The notes beneath the pieces are model-generated. The model did not search any database and was not told where the DNA came from. It was given only the letters and a program-made list of their open reading frames with translations. This document shows, piece after piece, positions 1-33,987 of a stretch of 34,495 bases of DNA (positions are counted from its first letter, which is position 1; every line of letters starts with the position of its first letter). Position numbers and translations under genes: made by a program. The DNA comes from Candidatus Kuenenia stuttgartensis. Its GTDB lineage: Bacteria; Planctomycetota; Planctomycetia; Planctomycetales; Planctomycetaceae. Where the stretch lies: contig CAMAVB010000055.1 of NCBI GenBank assembly GCA_945861465.1, positions 1-34,495 of the forward strand. The letters are read 5' to 3'.

Positions 1-957
1 AGACAGGACCAGCGTCCCTTTGCCCTTCGCGAGCGAACTCAGCACGACCGACGCTTCGTAGGTTTCACCCAGACGGACAAATCGCGGCAGATCAAGCCGT
101 TCCAATAACACTTCGTGAGTGTAGTTGTACTCAATGGGGACGACGTTGACCTGGACATCGCGGGACTGCAGGTCGTCGATGATGTCTTTCAATTGACCAA
201 CGGTTTCGGTGCCGTCGCTCACGAGGACAATGCGTCCCAGATGTTCTTCCGGCAGCATCGCGGCGCTTAATGCGAGCGACTGCTCCAGATTGGTCGCGTC
301 CTGACTGACACGCGAATTGATGTATTTTTCGAATGGAAAAGTTTCGCGCGGCGGATACTCGACTGCCGCCGTCCGCCCGAATACGACCAACCCAGCCTGA
401 TCCGTGGCCGGCTTTTCAGCCGCAGTGCCAGCCACCATTTCCAACGCCTGATTTCGCGCTTCGTTGACGGAATCGGAGACATCGACGTTGTACACCACGG
501 AGACCACGTCGCTCGTCCGCACAGCGCGTGGTTCTGCAAGGATCAGAATCAGCAGACCGCAGATCACCAGGCGACAGAATCCCGCAACCGCACCCCGCCG
601 TGCCGGAAGCCCAGCGTGACCAGCCGCCTGCATCCACCACACCCATGGCGTGAACAGCAATAACAGGAACGCCCATGGCCTGGCAAACTCCAGCTCTCGT
701 ACGATTTCGAATACCGGCTTGGGAACGTTCCAAAACGACAGCCATTTGAAATTTATCAATTCGACGCCCCAAACTGCAATCGCGACCTTTTCCCAAAGGT
801 GCGGCTTGCCCGCGGTCACCACAAACGTCGGCAGAATTGAAAAGCACACGAGAGCAAACAATGCGGCGAACACGAGCAATGGAATTCCCGCATTCCATCG
901 CACGGGGCGATGTGGTCGCGGAAAAATACGCATGAAAACCCGTTGCAGTTTGTTCAT
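1..957 (-). CDS. VWA-domain membrane protein (BatA-like), 3' end beyond window
   Basis: The frame stays open for 319 codons from the ATG at 957 to the window edge, so the C-terminus is missing. Hydrophobic segments lie at about residues 24-46, 94-108 and 124-142, followed by a von Willebrand A domain. The metal-site motif DxSxS is present as D159, S161 and S163, with a later ATNLEQSL threonine and a VLVSDGTE strand-loop. This is the arrangement of planctomycete BatA/BatB-like proteins, with N-terminal membrane helices and an extracytoplasmic VWA domain that binds partners through Mg2+. The ATG overlaps the stop of the upstream NHL gene by 4 nt (ATGA), which suggests translational coupling. 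The binding partner is unknown. The family call is firm at the domain level and weak for function. Confidence 0.8.
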   Translation of the reverse strand, partial: MNKLQRVFMRIFPRPHRPVRWNAGIPLLVFAALFALVCFSILPTFVVTAGKPHLWEKVAIAVWGVELINFKWLSFWNVPKPVFEIVRELEFARPWAFLLLLFTPWVWWMQAAGHAGLPARRGAVAGFCRLVICGLLILILAEPRAVRTSDVVSVVYNVDVSDSVNEARNQALEMVAGTAAEKPATDQAGLVVFGRTAAVEYPPRETFPFEKYINSRVSQDATNLEQSLALSAAMLPEEHLGRIVLVSDGTETVGQLKDIIDDLQSRDVQVNVVPIEYNYTHEVLLERLDLPRFVRLGETYEASVVLSSLAKGKGTLVLS

Positions 958-1985
958 GGGGTCAATTCCACCAGTCGATGATTGCCGGTATCCGCCACCA
1001 GAATGCGTCCATCACTCAGGATCGTCAGATCCCACGGCTGATAGAACTGATCCACGCCTCGACCGGGACGACCGTACCGACCCACTATTGTGCCGTCCAG
1101 ACGCATCACCGTCAGCCGTGCCGACTTGTTTTCAATCACATAAATCTGATTATTGTGATCGAGGCGAATATCGTAGGGATACTCCAGCGGAGCGGATTTT
1201 TCTGGCAATTTGATGACTCGAACAAACTTTCCTCCATCTTCAAATACCTGAATTCGGTCATTAAACGCATCGACCACGTACACAAGTCCGTCCTGCCACG
1301 CGATTCCGCTGGGTCTCTGGAACTCCCCATCGCGCGATCCATGCTTCCCAAATTCCGTGACATACGCCCCATCCACCGTGAATTTTTGAATACGCTGACA
1401 ATCGCCATACTCGCCCACATAGATGAACCCCATCGGATCCTGAGCGATCGTCACGGGAAACACAAACTGCCCCGCACCGATTCCCTGCGTGCCAAACTTG
1501 TGACTCACCGAACCGTCGTCGTTGAACAGCACGACCCGGTGATAATGCGTGTCGGCGACTGCGACACGACCGTCGCGAAGTTTCCAGACACCTTCCGGCT
1601 TGCCCGCCGCAAACTCCGGCATCTCCCACTGTTTTTCAAGCTTGCCTTGACTGTTGTACACGAGAACGCGGCCTGCATCATCGAGAACGTACACATTGTC
1701 ATGTTCGTCGGCGTACAATCCTCGAGGTGCGGGCAGGAACGAACCCGATGCCGGGACTTTCCAGGTATCAAATTTCGTAAACGACAATTCCGGGTCGGCC
1801 GTTCGTTCTCCACAACCAGTTACAAAGAGGAAAAGCAATATTGCGATGAAAACGGCACGCTCGTAGGGTGGGACCAGCGGCTGATAAGCCGCGCCGGCCC
1901 ACCTATGGAAGTATCGCCAATGGTGGGCTGGCGCTCGCGTTGCTCGCTTGTCCCACCCTACTTTGGCTGGACCGGTCGTTCTCAT
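954..1985 (-). CDS. NHL-repeat lipoprotein with a palindromic repeat inside its signal sequence
   Basis: The 343-aa product has a hydrophobic stretch ending in a lipobox (residues 45-58, LFVTGC, lipidated Cys58) and then about six NHL-type blades, seen as repeated phrases such as RPSGIAWQDGLVYVVDAFNDR and PWDLTILSDGRILVADTGNHR. NHL proteins form six-bladed propellers used for protein or ligand binding, here probably exported and membrane-anchored. The ATG at 1985 overlaps the ABC ATPase stop by 4 nt. Codons 9-41 are exactly the 99-nt palindromic repeat at 1863-1961. Without them the N-terminus would be an ordinary 25-residue lipoprotein signal (MRTTGPAK followed by ERAVFIAILLFLFVTGC). No ATG, GTG or TTG between the repeat and the hydrophobic core offers a better start, so the repeat is probably translated. 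Confidence 0.8.
   Translation of the reverse strand: MRTTGPAKVGWDKRATRAPAHHWRYFHRWAGAAYQPLVPPYERAVFIAILLFLFVTGCGERTADPELSFTKFDTWKVPASGSFLPAPRGLYADEHDNVYVLDDAGRVLVYNSQGKLEKQWEMPEFAAGKPEGVWKLRDGRVAVADTHYHRVVLFNDDGSVSHKFGTQGIGAGQFVFPVTIAQDPMGFIYVGEYGDCQRIQKFTVDGAYVTEFGKHGSRDGEFQRPSGIAWQDGLVYVVDAFNDRIQVFEDGGKFVRVIKLPEKSAPLEYPYDIRLDHNNQIYVIENKSARLTVMRLDGTIVGRYGRPGRGVDQFYQPWDLTILSDGRILVADTGNHRLVELTP
1863..1961. repeat. 99-nt palindromic repeat in frame inside the NHL gene
   Basis: It has perfect 12-bp terminal inverted repeats, GTAGGGTGGGAC at 1863-1874 and GTCCCACCCTAC at 1950-1961. Inside are further stems, GCGGCT/AGCCGC and GCCCACC/GGTGGGC. Its length is exactly 33 codons and it contains no stop in the NHL frame. 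Confidence 0.85.
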
Positions 1986-3067
1986 GGAATACCACCTGGC
2001 GTCCCCAGGATACGAAACGCCACGCGCTGCCTTGGCTGTATCACAACTTCGGGGACCTGATGCAGCACAGACTTCGTCATCCCGGATGTCACATGCCGTA
2101 CGATCGATTCCTGATATGCCCCGACAAATGGCATTGCCAGAACTTCGATCGCCGAATCGTCGGCGATGCGAATGTGCATCCGTTCCGGCCGAACGGCAAC
2201 ATCAGAATTCGTCACATGTCCATTCAGAAACTCCGACGTTTCATCCGCCCGAAACCAATTCAGGGGACCAAGGAATGCACCAATCTGAGCATTCGGCGGA
2301 TGGTCATAGAGCGTTCTGACCGGGCCTTCGAAAACGACAGAGCCGGCGTCCAGACAAATCACATGCTCCGCGTGCCGCAGCACTGTTTCGGGTTCGTGAG
2401 ATGAGAAGACCATAGAGATATTTTCTTCGGCAACAATCTGTCGCACGAGATTCCAGTAAGTCGGCTTTCGAACCGGATCCACATGGCTGAGCGGTTCGTC
2501 GAGCAGCAGCACGGCGGCCCGCGTTGCCAGAGCCCGCGCCATGCCTAACCGCGAACGCTCACCCTGAGATAACTCCGCCGGAAACGCCTGCCGACGATGT
2601 GTCAGATCGAACAACTCCAGAAGTTCGTCTGTTTTTTTCCAAAAACACTCTGATCCGGAACCTGTTTTCTGCTCTTGTGCGGCTTCGATCCTGACCACTT
2701 GCAGATGCTGCTCCGCTGATAAATGGGGCCAGAGCCCGCCACTTTGGGGAACCCAGAACAGCGGAAGTCGGTGCGTTGGACCTGCCAGGACACTTGACTC
2801 CAGGGTGCCGGAAAAGCCGGTCTCGAACCCTGCCAGCACGTTGAGCAGCGATGTCTTTCCGGCTCCGGAAAGCCCGACAACCGCTGTCGCCCCGAAGGGA
2901 ATTTCAAGTGTGATCGAATTGAGACGCATGCTCGGCGAGCGGGGGGTGTTAACCCCCTGATTGTGCTTCGCGACGCTTCGCGAATCACGAGAATCACCAT
3001 CAGGGGACTGACGTCCCCCGCTCGCCGGAAGTGTCACATTCCGTAGACGGAACAGCGGACCACTCAT
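1982..3067 (-). CDS. ABC transporter ATPase (orphan, FbpC/ModC-like)
   Basis: The 361-aa ATP-binding subunit has all core motifs: Walker A G65-S73 (GLSGAGKTS), Q-loop Q108, signature LSQGE at 166-170, Walker B with D190 and E191, and an H-loop in FSSHEPE. The C-terminal third contains a VAVRPERMHI segment resembling the TOBE_2 domain of iron, molybdate or spermidine importers, so an import ATPase is the best guess. No permease or binding protein is adjacent, so the substrate is unknown. The signature has Gln for the second Gly (LSQGE for LSGGQ), a tolerated variant. Residues 15-45 are encoded by an in-frame 93-nt palindromic repeat. The start overlaps the holA stop by 4 nt and the stop overlaps the NHL start by 4 nt. 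Confidence 0.85.
   Translation of the reverse strand: MSGPLFRLRNVTLPASGGRQSPDGDSRDSRSVAKHNQGVNTPRSPSMRLNSITLEIPFGATAVVGLSGAGKTSLLNVLAGFETGFSGTLESSVLAGPTHRLPLFWVPQSGGLWPHLSAEQHLQVVRIEAAQEQKTGSGSECFWKKTDELLELFDLTHRRQAFPAELSQGERSRLGMARALATRAAVLLLDEPLSHVDPVRKPTYWNLVRQIVAEENISMVFSSHEPETVLRHAEHVICLDAGSVVFEGPVRTLYDHPPNAQIGAFLGPLNWFRADETSEFLNGHVTNSDVAVRPERMHIRIADDSAIEVLAMPFVGAYQESIVRHVTSGMTKSVLHQVPEVVIQPRQRVAFRILGTPGGIP
2934..3026. repeat. 93-nt palindromic repeat in frame inside the ABC ATPase gene
   Basis: The outer arms are GGCGAGCGGGGGGTGTTAAC on the left (2934-2953) and the imperfect complement ending GTCCCCCGCTCGCC on the right (to 3026). The next inner bases, CCCCTGAT against TCAGGGG, also pair. 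The length is exactly 31 codons with no stop in the ATPase frame. A related half-copy occurs at 27602-27630 and the same outer heptamer bounds the element at 26213-26323. Confidence 0.85.
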
Positions 3068-4083
3068 TTGGCACTCATGACAACGGGCTCACCCGCCAGC
3101 CGGACAAAAAGGCGTTCCAGCAGCAACTTCGGGTCAACGCGACTACCGCCTTTCATCTCGGTGTCGGCTTCAATCAATAAATGCAGAATGCGACTCGCTC
3201 GTTCAAAACCAATTCGTCGCAGATAGGCCTCGCTCGCTGAAATGGCATTCGGAAAAATACCCGCACCGGCGATCGCATCCCGGAGCGGAGTCCCGGCTCT
3301 GGCATGTTCCGTCGCTTCCGCCAGTTTGCGAAATGTATAAGTAACTCCGCCAAGGACTTTTTGCGGTGCTTCTCCGGAAATCATCAGTTTATCCAACGCC
3401 TCGAGAGCCTTTCCTGAGTGCCCATCGCGGACAGCATCAAGCATCACCCATGTGGTTTCGGTCCGCCAACCGCCGACAACCTGCGTGACGTCTTCGCGCG
3501 TGATCTCAACGACATCGCCAACCAGCGACGCCAGTTTGGCAATTTCCTGCAGCAGCATCCCAAGGCCATCGCCCGCCAACTGCACGACCAACGCCGCATT
3601 CTCACGATCCAGCGTTTTACCATACTGATCCTTCGCCACGCGCTGCAGCCACTTGAGCAGATTGGCACCTGTCAGTTCAGCACACTCGACGGCCACACCG
3701 TGCTGTTCGACCAGTTTGAACAGCTTTGTATTCTTCGGCAAGCTCTTCACGTCCAGAATCAGCAGCGATCCCTTCGCCGGACTCGCGACATATTTTTCCA
3801 GCACTGGCCGGTTGGCAGTCACGAAATCGTCAGCATCGTCGATCAGCACGATCCGCTGATCGCCGAACATTGAGACGGTCCGCAGTTCGGTCATCACCGT
3901 CCGAATCTCGGCCTGCTCGCCATTGAATCGCGTGATCGACGATTCGGCATCTTCGCCGGACACTCCCGGAATGCGGTGCAGGATCTCCGGGCGAAAAAAT
4001 CGTTCCGGACCATACATCACCAGTACACCTTGCGTCGAAATGGGTTCCCTCGACGACAAGAACTCCGTAGCACTGACACTCAT
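3064..4083 (-). CDS. holA: DNA polymerase III delta subunit
   Basis: This is the clamp-loader delta subunit, which opens the beta sliding clamp in the DnaX complex. The 339-aa product has the delta layout. The N-terminal AAA-like domain has a conserved GVLVMYGPERFFRPEIL start (the degenerate nucleotide-site region) and RIVLIDDADDFV. It is followed by a helical lid and a C-terminal domain with MISGEAPQKVLGGVTYTFRKL. I chose the ATG at 4083, which has GAGG 7 nt upstream; an in-frame TTG at 4104 would add seven residues. It is the first gene of the minus-strand cluster, and its stop overlaps the ABC ATPase start as ATGA. Pairing a replication gene with surface-protein genes is probably just promoter sharing. 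Confidence 0.9.
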   Translation of the reverse strand: MSVSATEFLSSREPISTQGVLVMYGPERFFRPEILHRIPGVSGEDAESSITRFNGEQAEIRTVMTELRTVSMFGDQRIVLIDDADDFVTANRPVLEKYVASPAKGSLLILDVKSLPKNTKLFKLVEQHGVAVECAELTGANLLKWLQRVAKDQYGKTLDRENAALVVQLAGDGLGMLLQEIAKLASLVGDVVEITREDVTQVVGGWRTETTWVMLDAVRDGHSGKALEALDKLMISGEAPQKVLGGVTYTFRKLAEATEHARAGTPLRDAIAGAGIFPNAISASEAYLRRIGFERASRILHLLIEADTEMKGGSRVDPKLLLERLFVRLAGEPVVMSAK

Positions 4084-4202
4084 GCCTCTGCCTCGTTGCG
4101 ACAACCAGATTTCGTTCTCCGAGGGGTAGTGTGTCGAAGATGTATCGCTTTTTCTATCGCCGCAGCGGTAAATTGTGATTCAACGACAAATGAAGTGCGC
4201 TA

Positions 4203-18386: not shown

Positions 18387-18438
18387 CCTTCTCCCCCGAA
18401 ATCGGGGGAGAAGGTGGCCGACAGGCCGGATGAGGGGG
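18387..18438. repeat. Hairpin repeat (CTCCCCC...GGGGGAG type)
   Basis: A stem CCTTCTCCCCCGAAATCGGG plus GGAGAAGG is followed by the small stem GGCCGACAGGCC and GATGAGGGGG. A second copy in inverted orientation lies at 33936-33987 inside the RAYT remnant. Confidence 0.85.
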
Positions 18439-27690: not shown

Positions 27691-27766
27691 TTAAAAAAGG
27701 GGGCAGGAACCAATTGCCAAATGGCCCAGAGGGTGCTCCGCACTATTGGTTCCTGCCCCTTTTTAA
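27691..27766. repeat. Long hairpin element, copy 1
   Basis: The arms AAAAAGGGGGCAGGAACCAA and TTGGTTCCTGCCCCTTTTT pair over about 20 nt. The core GCCAAATGGCCC...AGGGTGCT...CACTATTGGTTCC is shared with the element at 32277-32362. Confidence 0.9.
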
Positions 27767-32277: not shown

Positions 32278-32362
32278 GGCTCTGAAAAGGGGTCCGGAAC
32301 CAATAGCCAAATGGCCCGAAGGGTGCTGCACACTATTGGTTCCTGGTATCTTTTCAGAGCCC
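32277..32362. repeat. Long hairpin element, copy 2
   Basis: The arms GGGCTCTGAAAAG and CTTTTCAGAGCCC are perfect 13-bp ends. The core GGAACCAATAGCCAAATGGC ... AGGGTGCT ... CACTATTGGTTCC matches the element at 27691-27766. It begins at the last base of the Fic stop codon and may double as its terminator. Confidence 0.92.
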
Positions 32363-33935: not shown

Positions 33936-33987
33936 GCCCCCTCATCCGGCCTGTCGGCCACCTTCTCCCCCGATGCGGGGGAGAAGG
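33936..33987. repeat. Hairpin repeat copy inside the RAYT remnant
   Basis: An inverted copy of the element at 18387-18438: CCCCCTCATCCGGCCTGTCG, GCCACCTTCTCCCCC, then GATGCGGGGGAGAAGG. It is in frame with the surrounding RAYT 3' piece and adds a Pro/Ser-rich stretch between TSAQDRIVDL and GWLAPIPL. Confidence 0.85.

Follow-up and report, generated by a model that had tools for sequence, protein, structure and literature searches.

A mobile palindromic element, composed of two inverted REP sequences and therefore referred to as REPIN, is present in frame within the leader of a lipoprotein-like NHL-repeat gene in the planctomycete DNA analyzed here (the whole stretch of 34,495 nt is called the window below). 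We consider it quite likely, judging from sequence comparisons, that this element landed in frame in the leader, is read through during translation, is cleaved off and is tolerated.

In the mechanism that we infer, the REPIN, consisting of two inverted GTAG-tagged REP hairpins and being non-autonomous, would be moved by a REP-associated tyrosine transposase (RAYT). One copy would have inserted 24 nt after the NHL start codon, thereby separating the N-terminal residues of the signal from its hydrophobic stretch. With an inserted length of 3 × 33 nt and no stop codon, ribosomes coming from the ATGA overlap could pass through the REPIN, which would merely extend the charged n-region of the NHL signal. 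Upon export, signal peptidase II would remove the REPIN peptide together with the signal; since the peptide is cut off in this way, the mature lipoprotein would be unchanged and the insertion tolerated. Other in-frame insertions would survive in apparent variable loops or linkers, and frame-breaking ones would have been purged, which fits with none being seen at flanks of at least 120 nt. The features of the window to which this refers are the following:

954-1985, minus strand: NHL-repeat, lipoprotein-like gene with the REPIN in frame (Pfam NHL, E 1.4e-25)
1812-1862, minus strand: hydrophobic stretch and lipobox VTGC, residues 42-58, right after the element (assigned by eye)
1863-1961, unstranded: GTAG-tagged REP dimer (REPIN), 99 nt, encoding residues 9-41 on the minus strand
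1863-1903, plus strand: REP arm A, 41 nt, inner hairpin GCGGCTGATAAGCCGC
1904-1921, unstranded: spacer, 18 nt; copies vary in the spacer
1922-1961, minus strand: REP arm B, 40 nt, inner hairpin CGAGCAACGCGAGCG
1982-1985, minus strand: ATGA, shared by the ABC stop and the NHL start
1982-3067, minus strand: ABC transporter ATPase gene, directly upstream of NHL
2933-3027, unstranded: another palindrome, of a different kind, lying in frame within the ABC gene at about residues 14-46
3064-4104, minus strand: DNA polymerase III delta gene, the stop of which overlaps the ABC start (ATGA)

The element is a GTAG-tagged REP dimer

A preliminary description of the window had reported a 99-nt palindrome with 12-bp ends and 33 stop-free codons, which proved correct to the base. 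Positions 1863-1874 read GTAGGGTGGGAC and positions 1950-1961 are the exact reverse complement (the GTCCCACCCTAC end), so that perfect 12-bp inverted ends bound a palindrome spanning 99 nt (1863-1961), with GTAG facing outward at both outer ends. Folding of the DNA between 1856 and 1968 gave -37.2 kcal/mol (z -6.7) and folding of the mRNA between 1840 and 2010 gave -86.3 kcal/mol (z -5.8); in both cases none of 200 shuffled sequences was as stable.

The exact 12-bp end was found 220 times (115 + 105) in the 8.2 Mb genome, as compared to 0 + 0 occurrences of a reversed-pattern control. Among the 100 places listed, the majority are pairs of a plus followed by a minus end. A genome search for these ends had been proposed in the preliminary description, and the view of the element as an isolated oddity was rejected on the basis of the 220 exact ends. 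All of these matches start with GTAG because the search pattern does. With the 99 nt as query, at least 87 matches at E ≤ 10 were obtained, many places being counted on both strands; this similarity search scored the best 40 of 161 first-look candidates. The copy number in this planctomycete is roughly estimated at about a hundred.

In the sampled stretches of the same genome (G000), 66 unique inverted dimers of 77 to 162 nt were identified, 24 of them at 77-79 nt and another 24 at 97-100 nt. Dimers were accepted if their ends had at most one mismatch; best-match loci contributed 27 of them, and the remaining 39 were taken from further stretches, chiefly contigs C1-C77 in the order listed. In 61 of the 66, the two flanks are not coding in a common frame, in keeping with a dispersed and mostly intergenic family. 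In the 24 dimers of 97-100 nt, the inner hairpin of arm A is present exactly in 11 and with up to two mismatches in 21, that of arm B with up to two mismatches in 23, and both together, at the same tolerance, in 20. The possibility that the element is specially stop-free was discarded, as the number of open frames out of six is near that of shuffled sequences (3.1 versus 2.9 for the 97-100-nt dimers and 3.7 versus 3.4 for the 77-79-nt dimers); in all 48 dimers one frame per strand is closed, an effect that the GTAG tag would have. At five loci (L009, L016, L018, L021 and L027, around position 1501), the REPINs have flanks that by eye resemble GAGAACCGGAGTT...AACTCCG...TTCTC and look as though the REPIN were nested in a longer palindrome.

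The genome contains a full RAYT gene (L070:626-1252, NF047646, E 4.8e-55) that is surrounded by nine ends of this family (up to two mismatches) and flanked by an arm resembling REP arm B. A RAYT fragment below the NCBIfam cut-off (L075/L199) is accompanied by two such ends. Altogether, ends of the family occur at 2 of the 19 Y1_Tnp loci of the genome and are absent from the examined flanks of the other 17. Within the genus, 7 of 18 genomes have matches to the family at E 0.001, most of them in G000 and its congener G081, and congener G102 has no match at this threshold. The GTAG tags, the inverted arms, the dispersed copies and the RAYT gene with its associated ends therefore identify the element as a GTAG REP dimer, i.e. 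a REPIN. It is presumably mobilized by the RAYT, and the pattern of presence and absence between congeners is consistent with mobility.

Translation very probably passes through the element

The ORF 954-1985 on the minus strand encodes MRTTGPAK, then VGWDKRATRAPAHHWRYFHRWAGAAYQPLVPPY (33 residues, no stop) and then ERAVFIAILLFLFVTGC. The element begins precisely on a codon boundary and provides residues 9-41 of the NHL protein. As judged by eye, ERAVFIAILLFLFVTGC resembles the hydrophobic part and the lipobox of a lipoprotein signal, and a charged n-region, a hydrophobic stretch and a lipobox Cys were recognized in the same manner in the window gene and in most orthologous leaders. An ATGA at the ABC stop together with a frame open to the lipobox is found at 9 of 22 NHL loci. 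Eight of these nine belong to the 15 genus members, counting the present genome, and the remaining seven members show different arrangements at the ABC-NHL junction. In G102 the same ATGA start is followed by a 17-codon leader that has no insert. In G101, G114 and G053 the ATGA is present and the frame does not continue into the NHL protein.

No in-frame ATG, GTG or TTG is present inside the 99-nt element. The sole such codon between the element and the Cys is a TTG eight codons upstream of the Cys, which, as judged by its position, is too late for a signal. Because no usable start follows the element and the ATGA start is conserved, translation very probably passes through it. A start after the repeat, named in the preliminary description as a finding that would speak against its interpretation, is made unlikely by these same observations. 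The peptide contributed by the element would be removed upon cleavage at the lipobox.

We regard it as unlikely that the REPIN is extragenic, i.e. that it is part of the 5' untranslated region of a gene starting after it and that the long N-terminus is an annotation artefact. According to the accessible text of PMC3733652, many REPs at the N-termini of ORFs may be extragenic and followed by a downstream start, and the copies at L015, L016, L022 and L030 of G000 have a plausible ATG after the element. The window gene, however, is devoid of in-frame ATG, GTG and TTG codons from its start to the hydrophobic stretch, the ATGA start is common to genus members without the insert, and the likeliest alternative would be a CTG at residue 37 (giving MVPPYERAVFIA...), a rare start.

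Upon dinucleotide shuffling of the 99 nt, 34% of the sequences were open in the frame concerned. Combined with the 1-in-3 condition on length, an in-frame outcome by chance is thus expected about once in nine for a single insertion. The open frame in one case alone is weak evidence, and the weight of the argument comes from the orthologues and from other genes.

In-frame copies are found in other genes

Five of the 66 dimers are bordered on both sides by coding sequence in one frame when flanks of 180 or 240 nt are considered, and four with flanks of 90 or 120 nt. Frame-shifted dimers amounted to 0 of 66 at flanks of 120, 180 and 240 nt and to one (L181) at 90 nt. The five in-frame dimers are located in UvrA (two sites, the first doubtful), an SNF2 helicase, a DUF7133 protein and PurL, and a similarity search added another DUF7133 copy, the ends of which are worn. 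Stop-free, in-frame insertions into conserved genes that are absent from orthologues, the behaviour of protein-coding palindromic elements such as those of Rickettsia, were seen in NHL, UvrA, SNF2, DUF7133 (two) and PurL. Of 11 genomes aligned, G000 and G081 carry the second UvrA insert and the other nine lack it. The SNF2 insert (3 aligned) is shared by the same two genomes and absent from G106, and the first DUF7133 insert (8 aligned) is again shared by the two and absent from six. Confined to G000 are the second DUF7133 insert (8 aligned) and the PurL insert (15 aligned), G081 having a different, longer loop in PurL. In-frame dimers were also detected in HypF of G081 and in an aldehyde dehydrogenase of G115.

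Two candidates were not retained as clean cases. The copy in HlyD (L003) has flanks similar to those at L004, L006 and in part L007 and may belong to a larger repeat. At the first UvrA site (L185), part of the dimer aligns with native sequence in G102; a pooled dN/dS value of the inserts includes this site and was therefore set aside. On contig C40 of G000 (L119, L185), the frame containing UvrA stays open for about 2500 codons and comprises UvrA domains in repeated form, and comparably long frames occur in many genus members.

In two genes of G081 a REPIN precedes a signal-like stretch, and no Pfam family was found for either protein. At L117, GGAGGTGATCGC and then an ATG are located 16 codons before the element; there is an ATG inside the element, the next 42 codons having none. 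At L107, an ATGA overlap lies 10 codons before the element, TTG and GTG codons occur inside it, and a TTG and an ATG follow after 9 and 12 codons. Since other possible starts are present, both loci are weaker support for our interpretation than the window gene. In G000 and G102, the orthologues of the L107 gene carry no such REPIN at this site and have another repeat-like sequence in the leader; in these orthologues (L222, L223) the repeat-like sequence differs by species and the frame is open.

These insertions can be regarded as natural experiments, in which one palindrome is present in a signal peptide, UvrA, an SNF2 helicase, PurL and further genes, and relatives provide the empty sites. 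Some inserts are common to two species and others confined to one.

Divergence of shared inserts and possible function

The synonymous divergence between G000 and G081 was compared for inserts and 33-codon windows of the same gene. The SNF2 insert shows no synonymous changes, and 0 of 590 windows were as low; the corresponding figures are 0 of 1053 windows for the DUF7133 insert and 4.6% of 1707 windows for the UvrA insert, with windows that overlap and three inserts that were comparable. The stretch of 33 codons that follows the UvrA insert is just as low (pS 0.186). The pN values of the inserts (0.055, 0.029 and 0.135) are at or above those of the remainder of the respective gene (0.041, 0.027 and 0.100), and therefore give no sign of selection on the encoded peptide. 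Purifying selection on the inserted peptides was thus not seen, non-synonymous divergence not being reduced. The low synonymous divergence of the shared inserts may possibly reflect a constraint on the DNA or RNA hairpin.

In this context it can be asked whether the REPIN is retained for a function, either as an mRNA hairpin that tunes translational coupling after the overlapping start or through its peptide. The low synonymous divergence of the SNF2, DUF7133 and UvrA inserts and the fact that three genes have N-terminal copies 8, 10 and 16 codons past their start would agree with this. We nevertheless consider it quite unlikely, as the comparison involves overlapping windows and three inserts, the codons following the UvrA insert are equally low, pN of the inserts does not fall below that of the rest of the gene, and 13 of 15 genus members manage without the REPIN at the NHL site.

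The NHL gene in the genus and the order of species

By blastn, no REPIN was detected at the ABC-NHL junction in 13 of the 15 genus members that have the gene (own genome included); the junction of G114 contains a lone 12-mer with two mismatches to the REPIN end. In G081, 32 nt identical to the window element are present at the same site and in frame. The orthologue alignment thus did not reveal the same 33 residues in all orthologues, which according to the preliminary description would have argued against an insertion. In the G081 leader the 32 nt are preceded by a different repeat family, which matches 20 times in G000 and, counting this copy, 8 times in G081. This other family makes up most of the NHL leader of G081, in frame (L032:1268-1520). 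The whole G081 leader of 114 codons is open, as 3.7% of shuffled sequences would be, and contains other possible starts. The leader of G106 (103 codons) is also open (7.3% of shuffles), without this REPIN, and has an ATG at codon 71 as a possible start.

For the mature NHL protein, dN/dS is 0.07 between G000 and G081, 0.08 between G000 and G102 and 0.04 between G000 and G106. As indicated by these pairwise values, which average over the whole divergence so that a recent loss of function could escape them, the mature protein is under purifying selection with strong constraint. The preliminary description had proposed that the element entered a working gene, with the long N-region being tolerated or export being impaired; entry into a working gene is borne out by the 13 of 15 members without the REPIN, the preserved frame and the dN/dS of 0.07. 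The hairpin in the mRNA, with -86 kcal/mol across 171 nt, could lower NHL expression. That the insertion disabled the gene, with a coincidentally open frame and a lipoprotein no longer made or exported, would agree with the chance of about 1 in 9 per insertion and with a strong hairpin 24 nt after the start, but is very improbable given the otherwise intact gene with a dN/dS of about 0.07 and the 114-codon leader of G081, which holds part of the element in frame and would be open in 3.7% of shuffles.

The NHL tree weakly groups G000 with G102 (84/77), and not with G081. Three other genes taken together gave a trichotomy of G000, G081 and G102, with 23% of 200 bootstrap trees joining G000 and G081. 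The gene trees thus did not prove a sister relationship of these two, and a single origin of their NHL inserts falls short of proof. The inserts shared at the same sites favour a grouping of G000 and G081, or else suggest losses in G102. REPIN insertions might mark phylogeny where gene trees fail to resolve.

Relation to known elements

In Rickettsia, palindromic elements (RPE) are inserted in frame in protein genes. The tag is GTAG in our case as opposed to CGTC for RPE-4 and RPE-6, the phylum is another one, and the two are likened by description. An earlier study of the REPIN/RAYT system reportedly treated REPINs as mainly extragenic; several of the copies described here are, in contrast, inside genes and by our reading would be translated. 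When the definition of REPINs in the available part of PMC6006769, which also covers RAYT classes, is applied, the present system agrees with it in having two inverted REPs in one hairpin, a population of copies and a RAYT in the genome.

According to the accessible text of PMC3733652 (BMC Genomics 2013), RPE-4 and RPE-6 of R. conorii are equated with CGTC REPs, and proteins with RPE-1 at the N-terminus are expressed. The same text places GTAG REPs in Planctomycetes, naming R. baltica (taken here as Rhodopirellula baltica), and describes REPs that lie within ORFs in a number of species, such as uvrA of O. terrae and Thioalkalivibrio. With the head-to-head GTAG REP dimers in this part of PMC3733652 our element shares outward GTAG ends, heterodimer arms, a spacer, dispersed copies and a nearby RAYT, as well as intragenic in-frame copies, uvrA included. 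The signal-peptide case and the cross-species dating of one insert set the present work apart from it, the likeness to its 24 families being one of description. The statement in the preliminary description that no planctomycete counterpart is known must thus be restricted: GTAG REPs in Planctomycetes have been published, and it holds for intragenic cases insofar as the text of PMC3733652 contains none in a planctomycete, a list in its Additional file 3 possibly holding one. Beyond the accessible text of this paper, the literature gave nothing to the point on in-frame REPs of planctomycetes. The RU-type small mobile sequences of enterobacteria, as presented in the available parts of PMC2759123 and PMC2229807, are non-autonomous and intragenic and may carry ORFs; compared by description, they differ in being likened to MITEs and not to REP dimers with a RAYT.

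In the literature searched, chiefly abstracts and main texts of open papers, a REPIN located within a signal peptide was not described. Our results are a well-documented further case of a known phenomenon, in-frame REPs, and not a new system. The identity as a REP dimer with a RAYT, the in-frame copies in other genes and the in-frame palindrome of the adjacent ABC gene go beyond the preliminary description. As far as the literature was searched, the position in a signal peptide together with start-codon evidence, the in-frame inheritance across species and the presence of two palindrome families in adjacent genes are new. As the product is removed, it is suggested that the n-regions of signal peptides tolerate mobile DNA. 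Gene callers and REPIN surveys should therefore be used with caution, since palindromes regarded as 'extragenic' can be translated.

Other repeats in the window

The palindrome at 2933-3027 in the adjacent ABC gene has a fold z of -8.6 and is absent from the seven congeners with a comparable N-terminus (eight aligned, G102 being incomplete there). A shifted start is possible for the ABC gene because an ATG (residue 47) directly follows this palindrome. Three copies of an arm like that of the 2933-3027 palindrome lie beside another Y1_Tnp gene (L072).

Taking a broader view, several mobile palindrome families of the planctomycete clade might repeatedly lodge in frame 8 to 16 codons past overlapping or strong starts and in linkers, be inherited across species and be kept as DNA or RNA hairpins that tune translational coupling. 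Signal peptides would offer them a safe place, as the encoded peptide is cut off. We consider this generalization rather unlikely.

Two further repeats were noticed in the window. A 45-nt inverted repeat, 93% complementary, is formed by 18394-18438 and 33937-33981, with more copies in L021, L026, L191 and others. Finally, 27695-27755 and 32285-32345 are two 61-nt repeats that are 89% alike and have inverted ends (GGAACCAAT...ATTGGTTCC).
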